This document shows, piece after piece, positions 1 to 8,518 of a stretch of DNA of 8,518 nucleotides. Where the stretch lies: NCBI GenBank assembly GCA_030692055.1, contig JAUYCY010000102.1, positions 1-8,518 of the forward strand, given 5' to 3'. Made by a program: the position numbers and the translations under genes. Position 1 is the stretch's first letter; the number at the start of each line of letters is the position of its first letter. Source of the stretch: Candidatus Omnitrophota bacterium (lineage in GTDB: Bacteria; Omnitrophota; Koll11; Duberdicusellales; 4484-171). The notes under the pieces are model-generated. The model made no database searches, was not told the DNA's origin, and saw nothing but the letters and a program-made list of their open reading frames with translations.

Positions 1-120
1 CTCCGCGGCAAGTGAGCGGAGTATGTTCTATACTAATATTATCACTGGTTCATTCATTGCCTTGGAATGAGGTCAACTACGTTTACGATTTCGGCTTCAT
101 CCCCGTGGCAAGCCACGGGG
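1..120. repeat. two GC-rich hairpins in non-coding flank
   Basis: Two short perfect hairpins are visible. CTCCGC (1-6) pairs with GCGGAG (16-21), and CCCCGTGG (101-108) pairs with CCACGGGG (113-120) across a CAAG loop. Both carry GGCAAG at or next to the loop, which suggests related units. A frame is open from base 3 to a TAA at 136-138, but it runs through both hairpins and gives no recognisable protein, so I do not call a gene. A related inverted arrangement (CCACGGG/CCCGTGG followed by AGCTTCAT) occurs at 4724-4750. Confidence 0.55.
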
Positions 121-141
121 TATTCGCCGAGAGAGAATAAA

Positions 142-245
142 GAAGCTCTCTCGACTTTATCGCACAAATATTTCATAACTAATTTAGATTCAATGCCGTC
201 TCTGTAAAATTCTTATTTTTGACTTCTTGGTTGCAAGAAAGCTTA
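142..245 (+). repeat. dispersed repeat R1, copy 1
   Basis: The first 43 bases (142-184) match the reverse complement of 8116-8158 at 37 of 43 positions, and weaker similarity runs on to about 245. The unit has inverted ends: GAAGCTCTCT at the left and AGAAAGCTTA at the right here, GAAGCTTTCT and AGAAAGCTTC in the other copy. This is typical of a small non-autonomous element or a hairpin RNA. No coding capacity is supported. The GATTACAC repeat starts immediately after it. Confidence 0.65.
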
Positions 246-246
246 T

Positions 247-337
247 GATTACACAGATTAGATGCAGATTACACTGATTAAGAATACGTATAAAATCTAT
301 CGAAATCTGTGTAGTCTTTTTAAAATCGGTGTAATCA
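247..337. repeat. GATTACACAG-type inverted repeat, copy 1
   Basis: The motif GATTACACAGATTA (247-260) is followed by AGATTACACTGATTA (266-280). After a short spacer come the inverted forms AAATCTGTGTAGTC (303-316) and AAATCGGTGTAATCA (323-337). Each left arm can pair with either right arm, so the block can fold as nested or alternative hairpins. A shorter relative is at 7704-7755. I recall similar GATTACACAG palindromes as common in metagenome-derived genomes, but that is memory and not tested here. Confidence 0.7.
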
Positions 338-341
338 ATCC

Positions 342-378
342 TTCGATTACACTCAGGATTGACCCTGAGCTTGTCGAA
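342..378. repeat. TTCGA...CTCAGG/CCTGAG...TCGAA hairpin
   Basis: TTCGA (342-346) pairs with TCGAA (374-378), and inside it CTCAGG (352-357) pairs with CCTGAG (364-369). The motif belongs to the same 'CTCAGGGTCGAA' palette as the longer palindrome at 4107-4206. With the GATTACAC block it fills the gap between repeat R1 and the hairpin at 386-421, which are directly adjacent in the other copy at 8016-8158. Confidence 0.6.
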
Positions 379-385
379 TGGGTCA

Positions 386-421
386 AGTTCTTTCCTTTTG
401 CAACAAACTTGGGAAAGAACT
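386..421 (+). repeat. AGTTCTTTCC hairpin, copy 1 (second half of R1 composite)
   Basis: This is a 36-base hairpin with arms AGTTCTTTCC and GGAAAGAACT. It matches the reverse complement of 8016-8051 at 30 of 36 positions. Similarity continues loosely beyond it: AATAA, then TTGCC, in both copies. In the right-hand copy it directly follows R1. Here about 140 bases of other repeats lie between, so this copy appears interrupted. Confidence 0.65.
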
Positions 422-456
422 AGAATAAACGCTTGCCGTTATTTTATTCCTAAAAA

Positions 457-540
457 GGTAAGCATACTGCACAAGCTTTCGGCGCAAAAATTAACCCTGA
501 TTTTATAGAACAACTTAAACAGGCATCGGGAAGAGAATGA
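457..540 (+). pseudogene. 3' remnant of a TPR protein gene
   Basis: The frame ending at TGA 538-540 reads HTAQAFGAKINPDF, then IEQLKQASGRE. This matches the C-terminal tail of both intact TPR genes downstream (for example HKAEALGGKVDPKF, then LEGLRKASGREK in the gene at 1823). It is therefore the last 25 or so codons of a third paralogue. An in-frame TAA at 451-453 and unrelated repeat DNA lie just upstream, so the 5' part is lost, probably by repeat insertion or deletion. Its stop codon overlaps the ATG of the next gene in an ATGA arrangement, which suggests the paralogues were once translationally coupled. Assignment as a remnant is firm; how it was lost is inference. Confidence 0.75.
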
Positions 541-1781
541 TAAAAAAGTTAACCCTGCAATTTTTGATATTGCTTTTAAGTATCGGTAACATATATTCTG
601 CAGTTTCTGAAAAAGAATGGCTAGACAACGGGTTAGCTTATTTAAAAGAAGAAAAGTATGATGAGGCAATAGCTGAATTTGATAAGGCAATTCAAAAAAA
701 CCCAAATTATATCGAAGCCTATGATGCTAGAGGCCGTGCTTATTATCTTGGAGGTGACTTTGAAAAAGCAGTTAATGATTATACTAAAGCCATAGAGAGT
801 AATCCTAGCGATGCCGAAAGCTATTACAATCGCGGACTTGCCTATGAAAGTAAAGGCGATCTCGGTAAAGCCCTTGATGATTATGCCAAGGCCGTAGAAA
901 TAAACCCCAGTTATACTAAAGAATATCGCGGCAGAGGGCTTGCCTACTATTTTAGAGATAGATTTGACCAAATTATATTAGATATTACTAAAGTCAAAGA
1001 AGTCAAGCCCGAAGATATGAAGGTTTATTATACCCGAGGGCTTGCTTATGACTTTCAAGATGAACCTGACCGCGCAATTAGTGATTACACTACAGCCATA
1101 CAAATTAATCCTAATGATTTCAGGGCATACTACGGAAGAGGTGTCGCTTACTATCTTAAAAATAAATTTGATAATGCAATATTAGATTATACCAAAGCTA
1201 TAGAAATCAACCCCGATGATTTTGAAGCTTACCATAAGCGCGCACTCACTTATTTATATAAACGTAAATTTAATCAGGCCATTTCTGATTGTAATAAAGC
1301 TATAGAAATCAATTCTGGCGATATTTCTAATTACATAATTCGGGGAGCTATCTATACTAATAAACGTAATTTTAGCCAAGCTATTTCTGATTTTAGTAAA
1401 GCTATAGAAATCAACTCTAACGACGCCCAAGTCTACTGCGCCAGAGGTATCGCCTATTATTTTAAAGGTAGCCTTAACCAGGCTATTTCTGATTGTAATA
1501 AAGCCGTAGAGATTAACCCTAATTTTGACGAAGCTTTTCTTACTTTAGGGCTTGCTTATGGTAATAGAGGAAACTTTCTCCAGGCTATAGCTAATTTTAA
1601 TAAAGCAATAGAAGCCAATTCTAGTTGTGCTGACTGCTACTATAATCGCGCAGTTGCCTATTTCTCAAACAGAGACTATATTAGGGCTTGGGATGATGTA
1701 CATAAAGCTGAAAGTTTAGGTTTAAAGCCCGATGAAGGATTTATCCAAGCGCTCAAAAGAGATTCTGGAAAAGAAAAATAG
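537..1781 (+). CDS. secreted tetratricopeptide-repeat protein (11 TPRs)
   Basis: The 414-residue product begins with a signal peptide: MIKK, then a hydrophobic run to about residue 20, with likely cleavage after YSA at 22. The rest, from about residue 25 to 398, is 11 TPR units of 34 residues in exact register, each of the form 'YxxRGxAYxxxxxxxxAIxDYxKAIEINPxx'. A 16-residue tail follows, DEGFIQALKRDSGKEK. TPR arrays form a superhelical scaffold for protein binding; the partner is unknown, and the signal peptide places it outside the cytoplasm. The DNA of repeats 7-9 is nearly duplicated at 102-bp spacing, which suggests recent internal expansion. The start overlaps the stop of the TPR remnant upstream. 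No clear promoter is visible within the repeats. The next gene is 41 bp downstream with only a weak hairpin (TTCTTC/GAAGAA) between, so co-transcription is likely. Confidence 0.93.
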   Translation: MIKKLTLQFLILLLSIGNIYSAVSEKEWLDNGLAYLKEEKYDEAIAEFDKAIQKNPNYIEAYDARGRAYYLGGDFEKAVNDYTKAIESNPSDAESYYNRGLAYESKGDLGKALDDYAKAVEINPSYTKEYRGRGLAYYFRDRFDQIILDITKVKEVKPEDMKVYYTRGLAYDFQDEPDRAISDYTTAIQINPNDFRAYYGRGVAYYLKNKFDNAILDYTKAIEINPDDFEAYHKRALTYLYKRKFNQAISDCNKAIEINSGDISNYIIRGAIYTNKRNFSQAISDFSKAIEINSNDAQVYCARGIAYYFKGSLNQAISDCNKAVEINPNFDEAFLTLGLAYGNRGNFLQAIANFNKAIEANSSCADCYYNRAVAYFSNRDYIRAWDDVHKAESLGLKPDEGFIQALKRDSGKEK

Positions 1782-1822
1782 GTATATTCTTCTTAGAAGA
1801 ACAATTAGGCAAGCAGAAGACG

Positions 1823-2377
1823 ATGAAAAAAAAGAAATTATCCAGACTAATAACTGTTATTTTATGTTTATGCTTTTGGATCCCTTCATTCGCTGAAACC
1901 GTTGTCTTAAAATCAGGCAAAACTTTGACAGGAAATGTAATTGAGAAAACAGATCAATACGTAAAGCTAGATATCAATGGTACGTCCCAAACCTGCTATT
2001 TTGATGAGATTGAAAGTATTGATGGCAATAAAATAAGTTTACCTTCCCTAACGGAAACCGCAGGCAAAACAACACAATTTTCTTTACCTAAAAACATAAT
2101 TTTAGTGAAGAAGGCAGACTTAAGCAAACAAGTGTTCAGTAGAGGCGTAGCTTATACCCAAGTAGAGAAAAATGATGAAGCAATAGCACAATTTACCAAA
2201 GCAATAGACTTAGAACCTCGCTACGTAGAAGCCTATCTTAGTCGAGCACTCGCTTATTTTGCTAAAAAAGAATACGAAAATGCCTGGAACGATGTTCACA
2301 AAGCAGAAGCCTTAGGTGGTAAGGTAGACCCTAAATTCCTTGAAGGCCTAAGAAAGGCATCGGGGAGAGAAAAATAG
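1823..2377 (+). CDS. secreted protein with SH3-like N-terminal domain and C-terminal TPRs
   Basis: The 184-residue product has a clear signal peptide (KKKK, then a hydrophobic stretch, with likely cleavage after SFA at residue 24). Residues 26-68 form a compact beta-rich module, 'VVLKSGKTLTGNVIEKTDQYVKL' through 'YFDEIESI'. I know this module from other exported proteins of uncultured bacteria, where it looks SH3- or LSm-like. After a linker come about one and a half TPR units (residues 105-165), then the tail KVDPKFLEGLRKASGREK. That tail is shared with the gene before it and with the remnant at 457-540. The three are thus paralogues, probably one co-expressed cluster. The ribosome binding site is weak (AGAAGA). 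The molecular function is unknown; a role as a periplasmic or envelope adaptor is inference. Confidence 0.88.
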   Translation: MKKKKLSRLITVILCLCFWIPSFAETVVLKSGKTLTGNVIEKTDQYVKLDINGTSQTCYFDEIESIDGNKISLPSLTETAGKTTQFSLPKNIILVKKADLSKQVFSRGVAYTQVEKNDEAIAQFTKAIDLEPRYVEAYLSRALAYFAKKEYENAWNDVHKAEALGGKVDPKFLEGLRKASGREK

Positions 2378-2410
2378 AGTTATTATTGCGTATAATTTAG
2401 GGATGTAATC

Positions 2411-3199
2411 ATGAGCACAACTATTTTTTATTTTACCGGAACCGACAATAGCTTAAAAGTCGCCCGCGATTTAGCAAAAGAATTAGGCGATGCTAATATA
2501 ATTAGCATACCTAAAGTTATTGATAAAGAGTTTGACTTGTCAGCAGAGCGGATAGGCATTATCTACCCTGTTTATATGTTTGGAATGCCTTTGATTGTAA
2601 GAAAGTTTATAGAGAAATTAAAAACTAATAAAAACAAATATATTTTTGCTATTGTCACTTATGGCGGGATGGTAGGTAATACTTTAGGCCAAAACGTAAA
2701 AGAGCTCGCAACGCAAGGCTTAAAGCTTTCTGCTGGATTCGCTATCAGAATGCCGGGCAATTACACACCTCTCTATGAAGCGGTTGCACGCCAAAAGCAA
2801 AACAAGATGTTTGCGGAGGAGGCCCAACGCATTAAAGAAATTGCTAAGGCAATAAACCAAAAATGGCCGCATAAAATTGCAAAAGGAAATTTTATAGCCA
2901 ACTTTATTTTTTCAGAAATAATCTATAATTTGTCTTCGCCAAAAATCCCAATTATGGATAAAAAGTTTTGGGCTGATGAAAAATGCACCAGTTGCGGTAT
3001 TTGCGTAAAGGTATGCCCAGTAAATAACATCGAACTCTCCAGTAAAAAACCGCGCTGGTTGCATAACTGTGAACAGTGCTTTGCCTGCTTGCACTGGTGC
3101 CCACAGGAATCGATTCAATATGGAAAAAAAACCTTAGGCAGAAAACGCTATAGAAACCCGGAGATTAAATTAGAGGATTTGATAAAGGAGGTCAAATGA
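2411..3199 (+). CDS. EFR1-family flavodoxin/ferredoxin fusion protein
   Basis: The 262-residue product fuses a flavodoxin-like domain (about 1-150) to a two-cluster ferredoxin domain (about 185-240). The N-terminal FTGTDNS (8-14) matches the FMN phosphate-binding loop of the family, and YGGMVGN (about 84-90) lies where a second flavin loop is expected. Two 4Fe-4S motifs are complete: C192, C195, C198, C202 followed by P, then C220, C223, C226, C230 followed by P. Such proteins are cytoplasmic electron carriers that couple flavin and iron-sulfur redox. The specific partner is not known for the family and is not shown by the neighbours. No signal peptide is seen. The gene lies 33 bp after the TPR gene and its stop overlaps the ATG of a following, truncated frame. 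The family assignment is firm; the electron-transfer partner is open. Confidence 0.92.
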   Translation: MSTTIFYFTGTDNSLKVARDLAKELGDANIISIPKVIDKEFDLSAERIGIIYPVYMFGMPLIVRKFIEKLKTNKNKYIFAIVTYGGMVGNTLGQNVKELATQGLKLSAGFAIRMPGNYTPLYEAVARQKQNKMFAEEAQRIKEIAKAINQKWPHKIAKGNFIANFIFSEIIYNLSSPKIPIMDKKFWADEKCTSCGICVKVCPVNNIELSSKKPRWLHNCEQCFACLHWCPQESIQYGKKTLGRKRYRNPEIKLEDLIKEVK

Positions 3200-3252
3200 A
3201 ACTTGCGACTTTTCAAGTTATACACGTAGAAAAATCGCTTAGTCGAATTTGA
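3196..3252 (+). pseudogene. coupled gene start, truncated after 18 codons
   Basis: The sequence AAAGGAGG (3184-3191) is a near-perfect Shine-Dalgarno site 4 bases before an ATG at 3196. That ATG overlaps the TGA of the EFR1 gene (ATGA). The frame reads MKLATFQVIHVEKSLSRI and then stops at 3250-3252, exactly where a strong hairpin repeat begins. So good an initiation site for only 18 codons suggests a once longer, translationally coupled gene cut off by the repeat. A genuine short leader peptide is an alternative. The lost product cannot be identified from 18 residues. Confidence 0.5.
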
Positions 3253-3299
3253 CCCTTGACATCTACCTTAATAAAACCATCAAGGTGAATGTCAAGGGT
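3252..3299. repeat. strong two-part hairpin (CCCTTGACAT palindrome)
   Basis: ACCCTTGACAT (3252-3262) pairs perfectly with ATGTCAAGGGT (3289-3299). After a two-base internal loop, ACCTT (3265-3269) pairs with AAGGT (3282-3286) around a 12-base loop. There is no T-run after it, so it is not a classical terminator, although it could end or protect the upstream EFR1 transcript. It also contains TTGACA-like hexamers on both strands. It sits exactly at the breakpoint of the frame starting at 3196. Confidence 0.7.
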
Positions 3300-3306
3300 T
3301 CAATTC

Positions 3307-3349
3307 CGACAGACAACTTATGTTCGCAGTAGCTCCATAAGTTGTGTCG
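3307..3349 (+). repeat. leader hairpin upstream of the split gene
   Basis: CGAC plus ACAACTTATG (3307-3310 and 3313-3322) pairs with CATAAGTTGT plus GTCG (3336-3349), leaving a two-base AG bulge and a 13-base loop. It ends 6 bases before the GAAGGAGGGG ribosome binding site (3355-3364) of the frame starting at 3367. It could therefore affect translation of that gene as a 5'-UTR structure. A regulatory role is inference only; no known riboswitch is recognised. Confidence 0.55.
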
Positions 3350-3366
3350 TCATTGAAGGAGGGGAT

Positions 3367-3404
3367 ATGTATTTAGAGCTATTAAAGAAACTATATTACC
3401 AGGA
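3367..3404 (+). pseudogene. 5' fragment of the gene continued at 3717
   Basis: An excellent ribosome binding site (AAGGAGG, 3356-3362) precedes ATG 3367. The frame reads MYLELLKKLYYQ and then enters the repeat element at about 3405, reaching a stop (TAA) at 3466-3468. The frame starting at 3717 lacks any ribosome binding site. Joining base 3404 to base 3716 gives an uninterrupted frame, MYLELLKKLYYQE followed by MKLKVIK. This fragment and 3717-4103 are therefore best read as one gene of 141 codons interrupted by the tandem elements. The junction is flanked by CCAGGA (3399-3404) and CCAAGA (3710-3715), an imperfect 6-bp direct repeat. Confidence 0.6.
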
Positions 3405-3530
3405 GCGCAAGAAAGTTCGCTTGCCAACGAAGTTGGCAAGTTCACAACTTCGAACTTCCTTGCGGTAACTTTCGAAACAGGAACAACCTTTTGTTGATAC
3501 AGCAAAAACCTTTTTATACTTTCCTATACC
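3405..3530 (+). mobile_element. structured repeat element, copy A
   Basis: The unit starts with GCAAGAAA. The outer stem is GCAAG (3407-3411) with CTTGC (3459-3463), a conserved A·C mismatch at 3412·3458, and GTTCG (3415-3419) with CGAAC (3451-3455). Inside is the perfect hairpin CTTGCCAAC/GTTGGCAAG (3420-3440), followed by the single-stranded TTCACAACTT. After a further 47 bases comes the 19-mer TTTTTATACTTTCCTATAC (3511-3529). Copy C (8245-8365) shares the whole plan and copy B follows directly. No protein is encoded. It may be a non-autonomous element or a structural RNA; the type of mobility is unknown. Confidence 0.7.
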
Positions 3531-3709
3531 GCAAGAAACTCGAAGCAATGTGGATTTATAAACAAGAAACCTCACTTCGCCGCAAGGCGAAGCTCACAAC
3601 TATTTTAGGTTAGCGCCAAGCGCCCCCCCTTAGAGGTTCCTTGGCGTGGCTGCGAATGAAAAATAAGCATTTTGCATTAGCAATTCGCCTTTTTATACTT
3701 TCCTATACG
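3531..3709 (+). mobile_element. structured repeat element, copy B (diverged, longer)
   Basis: This copy starts with the same GCAAGAAA (3531-3538), then has about 24 extra bases before a second CAAGAAA (3563-3569). The outer stem is CAAG/CTTG plus CCTC (3570-3573) with GAGG (3633-3636), keeping the A·C mismatch. The inner hairpin is CTTCGCC GCAA GGCGAAG (3575-3592), different in sequence from copies A and C but still fully paired. The motif CTCACAACT follows. An insert of about 31 bases with a C7 run and its own GCGC/GCGC stem lengthens the apical side. The 19-mer TTTTTATACTTTCCTATAC (3690-3708) stands 46 bases after the outer stem. Confidence 0.65.
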
Positions 3710-3716
3710 CCAAGAA

Positions 3717-4103
3717 ATGAAGTTAAAAGTAATTAAGCTAAGAGGGGCTATACTAGGTAAATTAGGAAATTATCTAACCATTTCGGAACTGGAAGGTAGG
3801 GGTGATATCACAGAAGAAGTTAAAGATAGGATGCTTAGAGATAGAGACAATGCGGATAAGGTAGAAGAACGTCTGTATAAAAACACCCAAGATGAGATAG
3901 CCTCTATCAACAGAGAAGAGCAAGAGGAGTTAAAAAACACCAATTATAATGCCGACGAATACGCGGATTATCTATTTCAGGCAGAAAAGATGTATGCCAT
4001 AGAGACCGAGCTGGCAGAAAAAGGCTTATATCCCGAAGGCGTATATAATGAGCAGAAAGAATCGCAAACAGATAATGAAGCCTTCCATAGTTCCTCGGGC
4101 TAA
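3717..4103 (+). CDS. hypothetical protein, 3' part of a split gene
   Basis: I do not recognise the product. The 128 residues are strongly charged and mostly helical in character, rich in E, K, D and N (for example DITEEVKDRMLRDRDNADKV). There is no signal peptide, membrane segment, cysteine motif or clear catalytic motif. The ATG has no Shine-Dalgarno site, because the terminal 19-mer of repeat copy B ends 8 bases before it. With the fragment at 3367 the original protein would have had 141 residues and a good ribosome binding site. Whether the 3717 start is used is doubtful. The last codons (FHSSSG) run directly into a hairpin repeat (CGGG ctaa CCCG, then 4107-4206), so the C-terminus may also have been altered by repeat insertion. 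Confidence 0.55.
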   Translation: MKLKVIKLRGAILGKLGNYLTISELEGRGDITEEVKDRMLRDRDNADKVEERLYKNTQDEIASINREEQEELKNTNYNADEYADYLFQAEKMYAIETELAEKGLYPEGVYNEQKESQTDNEAFHSSSG

Positions 4104-4106
4104 CCC

Positions 4107-4206
4107 GTTCGACTTCGCTCAGGATGGTTCGACCCTTCGGCCATACTCAGGGTCGAACACTGAGTATGGCCGAATGTGCTCGAAGGAATGGTGAGCGTAG
4201 TCGAAC
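4107..4206. repeat. 100-bp palindromic repeat (TTCGACTTCGCTCA type)
   Basis: GTTCGACTTCGCTCA (4107-4121) pairs with TGAGCGTAGTCGAAC (4192-4206) at 14 of 15 positions. Inside it, GGCCATACTCAG (4139-4150) pairs perfectly with CTGAGTATGGCC (4160-4171). The motif GGTCGAA and its complement recur within it. I know such palindromes as frequent in genomes of uncultured bacteria. A minus-strand frame running through it and the next palindrome is a by-product of the repeats and not a gene. Confidence 0.8.
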
Positions 4207-4257
4207 CAAAGCCTGTGGTTTCAGCATGGCTAATACCAAGCGGCGCACTATATAATC

Positions 4258-4277
4258 CCTGCCTGCCGGCAGGCAGG
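4258..4277. repeat. perfect 20-bp palindrome CCTGCCTGCCGGCAGGCAGG
   Basis: The 20 bases are their own reverse complement, and the block is far richer in GC than its surroundings. The same CCTGCCGGCAGG core is widely scattered in genomes of uncultured bacteria (from memory), where it yields spurious 'LPAGRQ' translations. Only one copy occurs in this window. No function is evident. Confidence 0.75.
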
Positions 4278-4400
4278 CGCGCTTGTGAATGCCGCGGATT
4301 TCTGAGCACCTTAATACGATAATAAGCGAAATCCCGACATCATCGGGAAGCGCCGTGAATGTATAAAATATAGCTCAATAGAGTTAGTGCTGTTACATTA

Positions 4401-4449
4401 AACCCAGATTTTGCGTTAGCAAAATATATGCGAAGCATAACTCTGGGTT
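4401..4449. repeat. three-way-junction palindrome
   Basis: The closing stem AACCCAGA (4401-4408) pairs with TCTGGGTT (4442-4449). Within it are two adjacent perfect hairpins, TTTTGC/GCAAAA (4409-4414 and 4419-4424, loop GTTA) and TATGC/GCATA (4427-4431 and 4435-4439, loop GAA). All stems are perfect and almost no base is left unpaired except loops and junction. It is not a tRNA. It could be a cruciform insertion target, a transposon-derived element or a small structured RNA. Confidence 0.6.
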
Positions 4450-4538
4450 CAGCTCTTTAAAAATAATAGGCTTTTCTCTCTCTTATATAGTCTGTTGCGA
4501 TACGAAAGCACTTTTGCTTATCATGAGAGGTCATGCTG

Positions 4539-4640
4539 GAACCAATAAGAAAAAACTTTGCTATGCAAAGATTGGTTACAACCATTGGTTCTGTTTGAAA
4601 ATACACGCATTTCGCATTAGCTGAAAGTATTTATCCCGAC
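4539..4640 (+). repeat. probable diverged copy D of the structured element
   Basis: GAACCAAT (4539-4546) can pair with ATTGGTTC (4584-4591) or, without the G, with ATTGGTT (4571-4577). These enclose AAGAAAAAA, the hairpin CTTTGC TAT GCAAAG (4556-4570) and a TTACAACC segment. That follows the plan of copies A-C: outer stem, AAGAAA, inner hairpin, TCACAAC. Downstream, GAAAATACACGCATTTCGCATTAGC resembles the corresponding part of copy B (GAAAAATAAGCATTTTGCATTAGC). The terminal 19-mer is degraded to a weak AGTATTTATCCC. The relationship is plausible but not certain. Confidence 0.45.
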
Positions 4641-4681
4641 GCGATAAAACCACCCCGATATTTTCATCGGGGTAAATGGAA

Positions 4682-4743
4682 GCGTGGTCGGGATTTCGCT
4701 CCACGCGCAGCGTCTGTGACAAACCACGGGCATTAACCCGTGG
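4682..4743. repeat. two short GC-rich hairpins
   Basis: GCGTGG (4682-4687) pairs with CCACGC (4701-4706), and CCACGGG (4724-4730) pairs with CCCGTGG (4737-4743) around a CATTAA loop. The second, with its AGCTTCAT flank, resembles the CCCCGTGG hairpin at 101-120. From 4744 to 4862 I see only AT-rich sequence with no convincing promoter or ribosome binding site for the protease gene. Confidence 0.5.
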
Positions 4744-4862
4744 AGCTTCATTTACTAAAAAGGCTTGTAACTTTTTTTACGTTTGTCTTTACGCATACCC
4801 TATCATGCAACAAAGAATTGCACAATTTCCATAACAACCTAATGCAAAATCTCGGTTAAAGC

Positions 4863-6674
4863 ATGAAGATAAAAACTAAAGAATGGATTATATTTATTTT
4901 AATAGCATTTTTGTGTTTTGGGTTTTGGTATAAATTAGAATACCCTCATTTTACCTTCCTAAATTTATCAATAGATAAGCAAAAAGCGCTATCAGCAGCA
5001 GACGATTATCTTAAATCAAAAAGTATAGATACCGGAGAATATTCAAAAGCAATTATTTTTGATGTTGATGATTGGTTCAATCGCTATCTGCAAAGGACTC
5101 TTGGTGTAAAAGGCGAGGAAAATTTTATAAGGCAATACGATTATGATTTATTTTTTTGGAAGATAAGATTTTTTAAAGAATTACAAAAGGAAGAATATAT
5201 TGTAAAGGTCAGCCCGCATAGCGGTAGTATCTTGGGCTATAAACATCTGATAGAGGATATAGAGTCGAGAGAGGATATAGGAAAAAATATCGCAAGGCAA
5301 AAGGCAGAAGAATTTTTGAAGAATAATTATGCTTTTGATGTTGCGACATATGATTTTCACGAAGAAAAAACAAAACGTTACGAAAAGCGTACAGATTATG
5401 TTTTTTCTTGGGAAAAGAAAGGCGTCTATATTCCATGGAAAAAAGACCAAGGCACAGCAAAGCTACTGACTGGGGTAACCGTATCGGGTGATGAAATAAG
5501 AGAATACTATAAAAATAGATTAGAGGTGCCAGAAAATTTTCAGCGCTACGTGGAAAATCAGCTAATCCTAGGAAGGTATCTATATAATTTTTATTTTATT
5601 TTATTGGTAATCTTGATAATGTTTTCCGTAAATATCGTTATAAAGAGAAGATATAATGTAACCGCCCGCCCCATAAAAAAATGGTTTTGTTATCTGGCAG
5701 CGTTTGTGGCGATAATTAACGTAGTAGATGTTTTTAATGGCTTAGGGGATGTTATAATGGAATATCCTACAAGCGCGCAGATAGCGTCGTTTATCGGGCT
5801 TCACTTAACGCGGACAACTTTAAATATCACTTTATTATTTATTGCTTTTATCATGCCCGCCATTGCCGGAGAACTTTTAGCTAATGAGGTGCTCCCTAAA
5901 GATAAGCGTAATTTCCTGCACTATATTAGGGCGAACTTTTTTAATAGAAGTATAAGCAAAGCCATAATCCTTGGCTATACGATAGCGATTATAACGTTGG
6001 GGCTTCAGGCAATTATATTTTATCTAGGACAGAAAACTTTAGGCGTATGGAGGGAATGGTTTAAGCTAACTCAATTCTCATCCGTGTATATACCGCTATT
6101 TAGCGTTTTTACCGTTAGTATTACCGCAAGCCTTAATGAGGAAATTACCTTTAGGCTTTTTGGAATAAGTTTGACAAAGAAGTTTTTCAAAAACACAATA
6201 ACTGCCGTGGTATTAACTTCGATACTATGGGGCCTTGGCCATACCGCATATGCCATATTCCCGGTATGGTTTAGAGTGATTGAGGTAAGTTTCATTGGTT
6301 TTTTGTTCGGATTTATATTTTTAAGATACGGAATTATACCACTGATCGTGGCACATTACCTATTTGATGTATTTTGGGGTAGCGCCGCATATATTTTAGG
6401 ACGTAGTCAAACATCTTTATTCTTTGGTTCCATTTTAGTATTGGCCCTACCGTTAATTTTTGCCATAATTGCTTATTTGGCAAACAGAGGCGATAAAGAG
6501 CGGGATATAAAAACTATGCTTGATAAAATCCAGGAGTATAATTTAGGGATTCTGATTACATTTATGTCTACGAAGAAATCCCAAGGCGTAAGTCCCGATA
6601 TTGTTAAAGAAGAGCTTATCCAGCATAATTGGGACCCTTCTTTGATAGATATAGCGTTAAAGGAGGTGTTTTAA
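4863..6674 (+). CDS. CPBP/Abi-family intramembrane metalloprotease with PepSY-like ectodomain
   Basis: The 603-residue product has an N-terminal membrane anchor (about 8-25). An extracytoplasmic part (about 30-235) follows, with two PepSY-like modules (41-127 ending YIVKVSPHSGSILGY, and 142-215). Seven or eight membrane segments follow from about 241 to 540. The CPBP (CAAX protease/bacteriocin processing) signature is complete: E426-E427-x3-R431, H460 in WGLGH, and H498-x3-D502. These residues bind the metal and perform intramembrane proteolysis in the family. The soluble C-terminus (about 541-603) ends in a UBA-like helical motif, 'VKEELIQHNWDPSLIDIALKEV'. PepSY domains elsewhere restrain peptidases, so self-regulation is a fair inference; the substrate is unknown. 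No Shine-Dalgarno is visible before the ATG. The stop codon lies inside the left terminal repeat of the next element. Confidence 0.88.
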   Translation: MKIKTKEWIIFILIAFLCFGFWYKLEYPHFTFLNLSIDKQKALSAADDYLKSKSIDTGEYSKAIIFDVDDWFNRYLQRTLGVKGEENFIRQYDYDLFFWKIRFFKELQKEEYIVKVSPHSGSILGYKHLIEDIESREDIGKNIARQKAEEFLKNNYAFDVATYDFHEEKTKRYEKRTDYVFSWEKKGVYIPWKKDQGTAKLLTGVTVSGDEIREYYKNRLEVPENFQRYVENQLILGRYLYNFYFILLVILIMFSVNIVIKRRYNVTARPIKKWFCYLAAFVAIINVVDVFNGLGDVIMEYPTSAQIASFIGLHLTRTTLNITLLFIAFIMPAIAGELLANEVLPKDKRNFLHYIRANFFNRSISKAIILGYTIAIITLGLQAIIFYLGQKTLGVWREWFKLTQFSSVYIPLFSVFTVSITASLNEEITFRLFGISLTKKFFKNTITAVVLTSILWGLGHTAYAIFPVWFRVIEVSFIGFLFGFIFLRYGIIPLIVAHYLFDVFWGSAAYILGRSQTSLFFGSILVLALPLIFAIIAYLANRGDKERDIKTMLDKIQEYNLGILITFMSTKKSQGVSPDIVKEELIQHNWDPSLIDIALKEVF

Positions 6675-6980
6675 CCCAAAATTTGCAACAGAAATTAGCA
6701 GCAGTTCAATTTACTGCGTAGCTTAAAGTTAGGTGATAATCCCTTGTGTCAAAAAAGTGTATTGCAAATTTTGCCTTTAGGCAGCCCTAATTTTGCAAAA
6801 AAGGCAATTAGTTAATATAAAAGGCTATAATTTCAGCATTTTAGTTTTGTTTAAATCAAGCCCTATCAGTAAAATTAGGGCTAGGTTAACCCAGCCCTTT
6901 ATTTCTACGGATGGATTCCTTCTTATGAGAATAAAGGGCTGCCCCTTGACAATTTTTATTAATGAAAAAATTGGGTTAAA
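6670..6980. mobile_element. 311-bp MITE-like element with perfect 10-bp terminal inverted repeats
   Basis: TTTAACCCAA (6670-6679) and TTGGGTTAAA (6971-6980) are perfect inverted ends. Inside are further long inverted repeats: AAAATTTGCAA/TTGCAAATTTT (6678-6688, 6762-6772), AGCCCTAATTTT/AAAATTAGGGCT (6783-6794, 6871-6882), AGCCCTTTATT-CT and its complement (6893-6906, 6928-6940), and CAATTTTT/AAAAATTG (6950-6973). A second AGCCCTA at 6859-6865 competes for 6876-6882. No credible gene is encoded. The left end supplies the stop codon of the protease gene, and the right end lies 6 bases from the ATG of the zinc-ribbon gene. A direct target duplication is not obvious. Confidence 0.6.
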
Positions 6981-6986
6981 AATAAT

Positions 6987-7301
6987 ATGAAAAAGTGCCC
7001 ATATTGTGCAGAAAATATTCAAGACGAAGCGCTAAAATGCAGATTCTGTGGCGAGTTTTTGAATAAAACCACAAAGGACAGGTGGTATTTCAAACCTTAT
7101 TCTTTAGTAATTGCTTTTCTTTGCGTCGGTCCGTTTATGTTACCTTTAATTTGGTTTCATCCGCGCTTGAGCCCAACTGCAAAAATAATTGTAAGCACTA
7201 TAATCATAATAATAAGCCTCATAACAGGGATTTTGTTATATAATTCCATAAAAAATATAATTGATTATTATCAAAAAATATTTTCGCCCGGCACTATATA
7301 G
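6987..7301 (+). CDS. zinc-ribbon membrane protein
   Basis: The 104-residue product starts with a compact zinc ribbon, C4-x2-C7 and C18-x2-C21 ('[22 protein letters not shown]'-like, split here for length). It is followed by two hydrophobic segments (about 38-57 and 66-86) and a short polar tail. Such 'double zinc ribbon plus membrane helices' proteins are widespread and poorly understood; the ribbon is expected on the cytoplasmic side. The ATG lacks a Shine-Dalgarno site, because the bases before it belong to the right end of the element at 6670-6980. Expression may depend on that element or be impaired. The next gene begins 124 bp downstream, after another hairpin repeat. The domain call is firm, the function open. 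Confidence 0.8.
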
Positions 7302-7329
7302 TTTTATTCAATTTGGTAAAATGTTAAAA

Positions 7330-7411
7330 CGCTAATATTCGCGAATCCAACGCTAATTTACGCGAATAAATTCATTCGCGATTATTTGCGTTAGATTAGC
7401 GTAAATTAGCG
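7330..7411. repeat. CGCTAATTTACGCG palindromic repeat in cupin leader
   Basis: CGCTAATTTACGCGAAT (7351-7367) pairs with ATTAGCGTAAATTAGCG (7395-7411) at 16 of 17 positions. The inner arms CGCGAAT (7361-7367) and ATTCGCG (7374-7380) offer an alternative small hairpin. A further left arm, CGCTAATATTCGCGAAT (7330-7346), can compete. The right arm ends 3 bases before the AGGAGG ribosome binding site of the cupin gene, so the fold could modulate its translation or mark an insertion into the leader. Confidence 0.7.
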
Positions 7412-7425
7412 TATAGGAGGTTGCT

Positions 7426-7695
7426 ATGGAGGTAGAAGTTAGAAAACCAACAAAAGAAGAATTGACAAAGCTAGACATAAAAGCTTGGCCGATCTGGGAG
7501 AAGCAAGTGTGTAGTTTCGATTGGTTTTATGATGAAAAAGAAACATGTTTATTTTTAGAAGGCGATGTAGAGGTCCAATGCCCTGACGGCATAAAGGTAA
7601 AAATTCAAAAAGGCGATTTAGTGATTTTCCCTCAAGGGCTAAAATGTAAATGGCACATTAAGAAAGCCGTGAGAAAGCACTATAAATTTGGCTAA
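7426..7695 (+). CDS. small cupin-domain protein (EutQ/cupin_3 type)
   Basis: The 89-residue product is a single beta-barrel cupin and matches my memory of a common 85-90-residue bacterial family related to the cupin_3/EutQ-like group. The recognisable core runs WPIWEKQVCSFDWFYDEKET, then CLFLEGDVEV (about 41-50) and KGDLVIFPQGLKCKWHI (about 62-78), ending HYKFG. The usual first cupin histidines are not evident, so metal binding and enzymatic activity are uncertain; many members have unknown roles. The start is fixed by AGGAGG (7415-7420) 5 bases before the ATG. It is convergent with the minus-strand gene at 7765-7932, and a GATTAC hairpin lies between them. Confidence 0.9.
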   Translation: MEVEVRKPTKEELTKLDIKAWPIWEKQVCSFDWFYDEKETCLFLEGDVEVQCPDGIKVKIQKGDLVIFPQGLKCKWHIKKAVRKHYKFG

Positions 7696-7703
7696 TTTTT
7701 TAC

Positions 7704-7755
7704 TGATTACAATGATTAAATAATCTGCGTAATCATTCCAAAATCTGTGTAATCA
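7704..7755. repeat. GATTAC-type inverted repeat, copy 2
   Basis: TGATTAC (7704-7710) can pair with GTAATCA at 7729-7735 or at 7749-7755, the latter within AAATCTGTGTAATCA. It is related to the fuller block at 247-337. It lies between two convergent genes and starts 8 bases after the cupin stop, so it may also act as a bidirectional transcript end; neither side has a strong T-run, and this role is inference. Confidence 0.6.
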
Positions 7756-7764
7756 AGTACTTAG

Positions 7765-7932
7765 TTAGCTAGATTTTTTTTCGTGTTTTTTTCTCTTTGC
7801 CAAAAATTTCTTTGCCAAGACGCTGAGCTTCTCTAAAGGTATTTCGCCTTTGCAGTATAATCTTACCTTTTCTTTGGCTTTGCGCACTTTTTTAGCGTGA
7901 ATTCTTTTCAGCTCTTTTTTATATCTTCCCAT
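7765..7932 (-). CDS. small basic hypothetical protein (55 aa)
   Basis: On the minus strand AAAGGAGG (plus 7937-7944) precedes ATG 7932 by 4 bases, and the frame runs 55 codons to TAA at 7765. The product starts MGRYKKELKRIHAKKVRKAK and ends KKFLAKRKKHEKKSS. It is extremely rich in lysine and arginine, helical in character, with a single cysteine and no membrane segment. I do not recognise a named family. The composition suggests nucleic-acid or ribosome binding, which is inference. A well-formed promoter lies upstream at 7976-8004. Good initiation signals, a clean frame and codon use like its neighbours make a real gene likely despite its size. Confidence 0.75.
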   Translation of the reverse strand: MGRYKKELKRIHAKKVRKAKEKVRLYCKGEIPLEKLSVLAKKFLAKRKKHEKKSS

Positions 7933-7975
7933 TGCTCCTCCTTTGAATAATAACTATTTAAGATAATGAGAATAA

Positions 7976-8004
7976 TTTATACCATATAAGTGTATTTATG
8001 GCAA
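7976..8004 (-). promoter_or_regulatory. sigma-70-type promoter for the 55-aa gene
   Basis: On the minus strand TTGCCA (plus 7999-8004) and TATAAA (plus 7976-7981) are separated by exactly 17 bases; each hexamer differs from consensus at one position. Transcription would start about 35-40 bases before ATG 7932. The -35 box lies in the zone where similarity between the two R1 composites still persists (both have TTGCC), so the repeat may have supplied part of this promoter. Confidence 0.55.
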
Positions 8005-8015
8005 TACCTTATTAA

Positions 8016-8051
8016 AGTTCTTTCCCAGGTTTATGGCAAAGAGAAGGAACT
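8016..8051 (-). repeat. AGTTCTTTCC hairpin, copy 2
   Basis: Read on the minus strand this 36-base hairpin agrees with 386-421 at 30 of 36 positions. The arms are less perfect (AGTTCTTTCCC against GAGAAGGAACT). Here it abuts repeat R1 directly, which indicates the original arrangement of the composite. Confidence 0.65.
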
Positions 8052-8053
8052 TA

Positions 8054-8158
8054 AGAAGCTTTCTTAATACAATGACTTTAAAAAGATAGTCATAAGAGAT
8101 AACTCCTTGATTTATAATTAGCTATGAAAAATTTCTGCCATAAAGTTGAGAAAGCTTC
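8054..8158 (-). repeat. dispersed repeat R1, copy 2 (inverted)
   Basis: Read on the minus strand, 8158 to 8116 matches 142-184 at 37 of 43 positions, and similarity continues weakly to the AGAAAGCTTC end at about 8054. The ends GAAGCTTTCT and AGAAAGCTTC are perfect 10-bp inverted repeats. A 72-codon minus-strand frame ends inside it. The differences between copies are not biased to silent positions and similarity continues past the stop, so I treat it as non-coding. Confidence 0.65.
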
Positions 8159-8244
8159 CTTGTCAACCTTAGCTTATAGTCCTTGCGTGAGCAGTAATGT
8201 TGATATTTAGCAAAGCCAACCCTTACTATTCGCCTATTTAGCCA

Positions 8245-8365
8245 GCAAGAAAGTTCACTTGCCAACGAAGTTGGCAAGCTCACAACTTTGAACTTCCTTG
8301 CGGTAGCTACGACACAAAATTGAACTATCCGCATTACCACGACGCATTTTTATACTTTCCTATAC
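8245..8365 (+). mobile_element. structured repeat element, copy C
   Basis: The plan is the same as copy A. GCAAG (8245-8249) pairs with CTTGC (8297-8301), followed by the same A·C mismatch, then GTTCA (8253-8257) with TGAAC (8289-8293). The inner hairpin CTTGCCAAC/GTTGGCAAG (8258-8278) and the CTCACAACTT linker follow. The 19-mer TTTTTATACTTTCCTATAC stands at 8347-8365, 45 bases after the stem. The last pair of the outer stem is A-T here and G-C in copy A, a compensatory change. No gene boundary is visibly interrupted at this site, and no flanking GCAAGAAA is found on the 3' side. Confidence 0.7.
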
Positions 8366-8382
8366 CGGCGCTGTTGCGAAAC

Positions 8383-8401
8383 TACCCTTGTCAATAGGGT
8401 A
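8383..8401 (+). terminator. weak hairpin after element C
   Basis: TACCCT (8383-8388) pairs with AGGGTA (8396-8401) around a 7-base loop and is followed by TTTTAT. This could be a weak intrinsic terminator, but no gene lies just upstream on either strand. From 8402 to the end of the window I see only AT-rich sequence without a credible gene. Confidence 0.3.
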
Positions 8402-8518
8402 TTTTATAAAGAATACAAGCGGTTATGCTCTTAATGCCTTATAGTTAAACATAAAAGCCTTTAGATTGCAAAGAAAATATTTTTTTAAAGAAAATAAGAA
8501 AAAATAATAAGTTTGGCT

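Follow-up and report, generated by a model that had tools for sequence, protein, structure and literature searches.

Probable miniature transposons with IS91/ISCR-type ends in an Omnitrophota contig and their short relatives in other phyla

The stretch analyzed here (hereafter "the window") comprises positions 1–8,518 (8,518 nucleotides, nt) of contig JAUYCY010000102.1 of Candidatus Omnitrophota bacterium assembly GCA_030692055.1 and carries three short, related elements, A, B, and C (122–148 nt, with no gene inside), and a protein-coding gene split into pieces by A and B (Table 1). All three elements end in the 19-mer TTTTTATACTTTCCTATAC plus two bases; the 19-mer is exact on the + strand at 3511–3529, 3690–3708, and 8347–8365, as noticed in a first-pass annotation made from the sequence alone; no further window site was found at ≤3 mismatches, and shuffled windows gave a mean of 0.01 matches at this threshold. 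A and C also have a 64-nt block in common, with 94% identity. The motif GCAAGAAA represents the left end, CAAG↓AAA (arrows mark junctions), and at A and B it is found again as the target on the right. The first-pass count of three copies was retained, but B had been started at 3531, i.e., 32 bases too early, as 3532–3562 belongs to the host gene. The borders of C were set by comparison with A.

Table 1 Elements, their parts, and the pieces of the interrupted gene in the window
Feature	Positions	Strand	Description	Basis
Element A, probable miniature of IS91 type	3408–3531	+	124 nt; left CAAG 3408–3411, terminal dinucleotide CG 3530–3531	Gene pieces on 17/17 homologues, 19-mer, fold
A, left (putative ter) hairpin	3420–3440	+	CTTGCCAAC-GAA-GTTGGCAAG	DNA fold; covariation of the corresponding hairpin across 23 related elements
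A, outer stem	3413–3457	+	AAGTTCG (3413–3419) / CGAACTT (3451–3457)	DNA fold; stem differs in a compensatory manner among A, B, and C
A, internal complementary stretch	3459–3467	+	CTTGCGGTA, complementary to right end and target TACCG↓CAAG (3527–3535)	Minimum-energy DNA fold of 3408–3535
A, right (putative ori) end	3511–3531	+	19-mer plus CG	Exact 19-mer; resembles ISCR1 oriIS (excerpt of PMC13023784)
A, target tetranucleotide	3532–3535	+	CAAG, host gene	Gene pieces on homologues; CAAG is a listed IS801 target (excerpt of PMC3189936)
Element B, probable miniature of IS91 type	3563–3710	+	148 nt; CAAG 3563–3566 to GC 3709–3710	Gene pieces on 17/17 homologues, 19-mer, fold
B, left (putative ter) hairpin	3575–3592	+	CTTCGCC-GCAA-GGCGAAG	DNA fold
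B, right (putative ori) end	3690–3710	+	19-mer plus GC; target CAAG at 3711–3714	
Element C, probable miniature of IS91 type	8246–8367	+	CAAG 8246–8249 to CG 8366–8367	19-mer; fold
C, left (putative ter) hairpin	8258–8278	+	Same as in A	DNA fold
Host gene, first piece	3367–3414	+	MYLELLKKLYYQERKK; last 7 bases common with left end of A	Homologues P0002–P0018
Host gene, second piece	3532–3562	+	KKLEAMWIYK; between A and B	Placement on homologues
Host gene, third piece	3711–4103	+	QEMKLKV...; QEMKLKVIKL... from 3711	Open reading frame from ATG 3717

The borders of A and B were derived from the interrupted gene and its homologues. The open reading frame (ORF) at 3717–4103 had 18 matches, namely itself and 17 homologues of 145–151 amino acids (aa), three of which bear an Omnitrophota or Omnitrophica name. 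When each of the three gene pieces was placed separately, without gaps and at its best position, the pieces fell on residues 1–16, 14–26, and 25–44 in 17/17 homologues, with identities of 11–15/16, 9–12/13, and 6–13/20, respectively. The N-terminus of homologue P0002 reads MYLELLKKQYYQERKKLEEMWIYRQEMKLKV, and the window translates to RKKLEAMWIYKQE across the second piece (3530–3568). Overlaps between the placed pieces are limited to RKK and QE, encoded by CGCAAGAAA and CAAGAA, which are found on either side of A and B; at the nucleotide level, the pieces share 9 nt at A and 7 nt at B, which is the end/target motif, and no target duplication extends beyond it. Since the three pieces are contiguous on all 17 homologues and overlap only in this motif, A and B have, judging from these placements, each been inserted at a CAAG of one and the same gene, from which nothing is missing.

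As single-stranded DNA, the copies fold better on the + strand than dinucleotide shuffles (z = −4.67 for A, −3.07 for B, and −3.34 for C). Viewed by eye, the outer stem differs in a compensatory manner between copies (GTTCG/CGAAC in A, GTTCA/TGAAC in C, CCTC/GAGG in B), and an A·C mismatch sits beside it in all three (A3412/C3458 in A), both as first annotated; the distance from outer stem to 19-mer, originally given as 45–47 bases, was corrected by hand count to 53–55 nt (A 55, B 53, C 53). In A, the right end also has a more distant partner: CTTGCGGTA pairs with TACCG↓CAAG, a stretch that takes in the target. The first-pass annotation had proposed selection on a fold, acting either as RNA or as a substrate for single-stranded DNA transposition. 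A conserved structured RNA or an intrinsic terminator, i.e., a hairpin followed by a T run, could draw on the T run near the hairpin and on the many related copies that seemingly lie between long frames, an impression rather than a systematic count. Yet two copies are inside one coding frame, the invariant part is a DNA end flanked by a target-like motif, and no Rfam family matched the copies at curated thresholds, the window giving only two chance-level miRNA matches at 7327–7414. We consider an RNA or terminator exceedingly improbable, and the DNA substrate the best supported of the two first-pass options.

The 19-mer points to a family of DNA transposons. The oriIS of ISCR1 is GTGGTTTATACTTCCTATACCC, and its core TTTATACTTCCTATACCC is one T apart from the core found here, TTTATACTTTCCTATAC (excerpt of PMC13023784). 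Elements that encode IS91-family transposases and have this core at one end were found in a Clostridium genome (G474) and in Methanosarcinales (loci L158 and L159). The single 6.48-Mb contig of G474 contains 14 core sites, every one followed by AA↓TRAA; 13/14 copies align over ~1.62 kb and one (L218) aligns in two pieces, with the left terminus AGAAC↓AAAAGTGTCTGCGACAC read in 8/14 (the exact seed failed in the other 6). Their 409-aa ORF is an IS91 family transposase, with matches above cut-off to NF033538 (4.6e-94), Y2_Tnp (2.2e-43), and Zn_Tnp_IS91 (1e-24); a PDB search with this protein gave one chance-level match (E 0.1). Y2_Tnp was also detected in 18/149 Methanosarcinales genomes, and in 7 of the 30 such loci fetched the core is present: exact and 5′ of the transposase gene in L158 and L159, and with one or two changes in L160, L161, L163, L164, and L179. 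The L159 element is about 1.5 kb long, from CAAG↓AAAGCCCCTATCGGGGC on the left to TTTATACTTTCCTATACGT on the right, and its 466-aa protein matches NF033538 (IS91 family transposase), Y2_Tnp, and Zn_Tnp_IS91, all above cut-off. A left end CAAG↓AAA(A)GCCCC...GGGGC is located 1.52–1.53 kb off in L159, L160, L161, and L163; the same rule found none in L158 and L164. These archaeal elements have the same plan as A: CAAG, AAA, and a hairpin on the left, the 19-mer and two bases on the right.

Hence, where the first-pass annotation had recognized no described family, the 19-mer is the ori-type end of IS91/ISCR rolling-circle transposons, common to elements encoding IS91-family transposases, intact in Clostridium and Methanosarcinales (exact core in G474, L158, and L159). 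Moreover, A and B are inserted at a GAAC/CAAG-type tetranucleotide beside this end, and A–C all have the left (ter) tetranucleotide and stem-loop. IS801 itself has a left end GAAC, targets GAAC, GGAC, CAAG, and CGAC, and acts in trans (excerpt of PMC3189936). Taken together, A, B, and C are very probably miniature non-autonomous rolling-circle transposons of IS91/ISCR type.

Next, we examined how widely such units occur. A 19-mer scan of GTDB species genomes returned 60 contig stretches, titled as Omnitrophota (21), Clostridium (20), Methanosarcinales or ANME-2 (5), Planctomycetota (4), and others (10), part of which are probably chance or unrelated matches. The core was found at 33 sites in 17/285 Omnitrophota genomes, with 0 sites for the reversed pattern. 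Among 30 listed Omnitrophota core sites, the short unit starts with CAAGAAA in 23 and TAAGAAA in 2, and five (L095, L097, L098, L102, and L111) are without such a start motif. The clearer short units measure 62–174 nt by a left-end rule, [CTG]AAGAAA or GAACAAA plus a hairpin, which was satisfied at 44 of 84 distinct core sites; the 36/44 left ends with CAAG are not independent evidence, since the rule looked for that motif, and L007, L031, L043, and L054 are doubtful. A search for the core plus CAAG in the order of the host genome G001 matched that genome alone (1/42). There was no match to 3400–3720 in a plasmid collection, and among viral contigs none had the 19-mer and one had a shorter pattern, its neighboring frames being viewed by eye. 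In three stretches titled bacterium, Nanoarchaeota, and Woesearchaeota (L018, L042, and L045), one gene (MxLTLxEPRLLKESMNII) recurs with the 19-mer at its start; we take its product to be sliding-clamp-like, and the 19-mer there is probably a shared promoter-like stretch, not an element. In C. cuniculi (L011/L062), a broken IS91-type transposase lies beside an exact 19-mer, and the adjoining genes are presumably TnsC- and TnsD-like.

The related short elements were used to evaluate selection on the folds. In an alignment of 23 elements picked for similar length, from which longer ones and A–C were left out, the left (inner) hairpin covaries: 6 cells were changed on both sides compared to 1.0 in shuffles, the covariation score was matched by 0/500 shuffles, and the 3 pairs changed on both sides were matched by 16/500. 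For the outer stem, pairing reached 90.8%, with no covariation above shuffles, which matched its paired cells in 124/500 and its covariation score in 301/500 cases; thus, the covariation claimed for both stems by the first-pass annotation stood for the inner one only. In a wider set of 45 elements, where 0.5 would be expected, the mean fraction of arms fitting better than an element's own left arm was 0.206 for the inner region and 0.275 for the outer region.

At the foot of the right hairpin, DNA folding ranked the own terminal dinucleotide (NN) strictly best of 16 dinucleotides in 31/54 copies, compared to a mean of 8.1 and a maximum of 15 in 2,000 shuffles of NN among the copies; as related copies are counted more than once, these figures should not be read as probabilities. 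Seven NN types make up the 31, i.e., CA (17 copies), CC, TG, GC, GG, TA, and TT, and 14/36 were best when CA copies were removed. DNA folding was adopted in place of an ungapped complement search for a guide, after the latter had ranked NN at 6.6 of 16 on average and overlooked stems with bulges. YRAR follows directly after the right end at 46/54 sites. This 54-site set excludes the transposase loci L061–L082 and 31 named loci, with Clostridium and other Firmicutes, L023 (Leptospiraceae), L031 (Omnitrophota, unclear left end), the gene-linked L018, L042, and L045, and the contig-edge matches L019 and L034 among those dropped. Given that the left hairpin covaries and that NN is best at the right-hairpin foot in 31/54 copies, the fold is under selection, as the first-pass annotation had suggested.

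Beyond the foot, one subfamily (A, B, C, L001, L024, L059, and L095) has an internal (C/T)TTG-N′N′-G complementary to the terminal NN and target CAAG, and the CAAG of the left end is a further possible pairing partner of its guide CTTG. An internal TTG guide goes with a CAAG site in 6/7 copies, compared to 4/28 copies with other guides (Fisher p 0.0008, a generous value as the 7 copies come from three sources, the window, G001, and G159, and the guides of A–C were placed by hand). Across the full set of 35 copies with a placeable foot partner, guide-target matching beyond NN was not above shuffles (471/5,000 reach it). Recognition of end and target by pairing with an internal guide, in a rolling-circle element of Y2 type, is thus an unlikely reading; it may apply to a single subfamily or to none. 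If true, target choice would be set by few internal bases, as in IS608. IS608 guides would likewise be complementary to end and target, and this complementarity, together with single-strand hairpins, is what A–C have in common with IS200/IS605 ends or integron attC sites. The same ends, however, carry IS91-family transposases, and both proposals fit poorly with insertion at CAAG inside a gene and the absence of a cassette structure (no search was aimed at integron integrases), so either identity seems scarcely credible.

Elements similar to repetitive extragenic palindromic (REP) sequences, moved by a Y1 (REP-associated) transposase, would also combine a tetranucleotide with a palindrome, and both REP-like elements and the A–C type have the tetranucleotide at a hairpin. 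Y1_Tnp genes are present in 25/27 host genomes of the short elements. Against this origin, the core (≤2 mismatches) occurred in 0/30 Y1 loci fetched with ~1.5 kb on each side (out of 84 Y1 matches, the other 54 being outside this set), and it is Y2 transposases of IS91 type that lie between such ends. Mobilization by Y1 enzymes is thus very unlikely.

Several observations weigh against the assignment of A–C to miniature IS91/ISCR-type transposons. Transposase families had 0 matches among the 8 of 17 window ORFs tested (the remaining 9 are overlapping or antisense frames of 65–109 aa, outside that search), on which ground A–C are not autonomous IS91 elements proper. PF04986 (Y2_Tnp) was detected in 0/16 short-element hosts (13 Omnitrophota, Planctomycetota, and other; 3 archaeal), and PF14319 was above cut-off in 2/27 hosts (G012 and G016) as short pieces only, its loose threshold also matching 8/14 control genomes, none above cut-off. 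Across 285 Omnitrophota genomes, Y2_Tnp was found in 12 and the core in 17, with zero overlap; among 17 Omnitrophota Y2_Tnp loci, a related end, TTCCTATGC, was seen only at L070 (G246), ~50 nt before the gene. Searching 28 genomes with the Clostridium transposase gave fragments in 3/27 hosts (G002, G012, and G016) and a long match, at 39%, only in G246, which is without the exact core; the G012 fragment reaches the contig end, as a collapsed repeat would. Overall, none of the short-element hosts searched, many of them draft metagenome-assembled genomes, yielded an intact helper. Most IS91-type genes have no such end nearby: the core was absent within the stretch fetched at the Clostridium IS91-type loci L061, L064, and L065, and only 7/30 Methanosarcinales IS91-type loci show the 19-mer end. 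Gene order disagrees as well: the ISCR oriIS is downstream of the transposase gene (excerpt of PMC13023784), whereas the Clostridium and Methanosarcinales genes have the 19-mer end on their 5′ side and point away from it, so that the "ori" label is based on sequence and on GAAC/CAAG at the left rather than on gene order. Among the elements themselves, the right flank of C is GCGC, not CAAG, and the own NN is not strictly best in 23/54 copies, including A–C of the window (short fold), S2.42 (NN = AG), archaeal short elements (NN = GT), and Planctomycetota copies. Separately, a stretch of G002 (S2.42, host of several short elements; L237, ~1501–1638) weakly resembles the C-terminal portion of an IS91-type transposase (E 6.1e-7) and is probably a relic.

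A–C might alternatively have arisen as one-ended products, truncated from a full-length element of IS91 type, and not be a self-maintaining miniature family. Miniatures of 229, 360, and 679 nt account for 26.3% of IS801 insertions (excerpt of PMC3189936), and an archaeal genome (L179, ~1603–1664) has two tandem 31-nt units CAAGAAAATGCGTTTATACTTTCCTATGCGT, CAAG...ori arrangements expected if a one-ended event had used a CAAG inside an element. However, IS801 miniatures as described in the same excerpt are without the left stem-loop, while the short elements keep a covarying left hairpin and share a plan across many genomes. Furthermore, the hosts searched yielded no long parent sharing the interior of the short elements, and L085 and L100 in G144, as well as L001, L024, and L059 in G001, look like one short unit at independent sites with no long parent. 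A one-ended origin is thus rather unlikely.

For miniature IS91/ISCR-type transposons, a transposition route can be proposed by analogy with IS91, IS801, and Helitrons, from which the helper in trans, the strand, the nicking order, and the intermediates would all be borrowed. The left end (CAAG, AAA, hairpin) would be the termination site (ter) and the right end (19-mer and NN) the origin (ori). Provided in trans, a Y2-HUH transposase would introduce a nick at the origin, in the strand reading CTTG↓N′N′GTATAGGAAAGTATAAAAA; rolling-circle synthesis would peel this strand off and stop at the hairpin and CTTG of the other end, and the element, as single-stranded DNA, would be joined beside a new CAAG-like tetranucleotide.

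As far as our searches reach, these elements are ordinary in kind and distinct in form, i.e., miniatures keeping both folded ends in several phyla. With IS91, IS801, and ISCR1 they share the oriIS core, the GAAC or CAAG tetranucleotide, and the left stem-loop, and they differ in being 122–148 nt (A–C) without a gene. Like the IS801 miniatures, they are short, keep the right end and a left tetranucleotide, and would be moved in trans by an IS91-type transposase, but the former are truncated IS801 pieces without the left stem-loop (excerpt of PMC3189936), whereas the A–C type has both folded ends and spans several phyla. In the literature, IS91-type miniatures beyond IS801 fragments were not found, as judged from titles, abstract starts, and passages, with few subscription journals covered. 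Non-autonomous Helitrons also have no transposase, rolling-circle logic, and a hairpin terminator near one end, 11 nt from it in Helraiser (excerpt of PMC4778049); A–C are prokaryotic, with CAAG/GAAC instead of CTAG-type ends and no RepHel helper. REP elements have a tetranucleotide foot. They are similarly short, palindromic, and associated with HUH enzymes (excerpt of PMC8266576), but no Y1 transposase with A–C type ends was found in the 30 loci examined.

The 62–174 nt family indicates what selection keeps: the left tetranucleotide, the left hairpin, the right-hairpin foot with NN, and the 19-mer. IS91/ISCR elements are implicated in the movement of resistance genes. How they recognize their ends is, to our knowledge, poorly worked out; miniature elements would offer a small substrate for biochemistry. 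The non-autonomous Helitron lifestyle would, with this family, extend to bacteria and archaea.

Other structured stretches were noted in the window. The fourth, decayed copy proposed in the first-pass annotation at 4539–4640 was discarded: it has no 19-mer at ≤3 mismatches and no right end, and by eye shows an AACCAAT...ATTGGTT hairpin and nothing specific. Dyads with CACAGATTACACAGATT/AATCTGTGTAATC lie at 234–340 and 7707–7757, with CAAGAAAG at the left (234) and the right end absent; similar dyads occur at L008, L016, L038, and L097, and dyad-like stretches shortly before the 19-mer in Planctomycetota Yes70-35 and one Omnitrophota genome. They may represent another miniature IS91-type subfamily. 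Finally, the window has a 53-nt inverted repeat, 77% complementary, with arms 7.6 kb apart (385–437 and 8000–8052), and two strong hairpins unrelated to the 19-mer, at 3245–3306 (28-nt arms, 82%) and 7350–7412 (18-nt arms, 94%).

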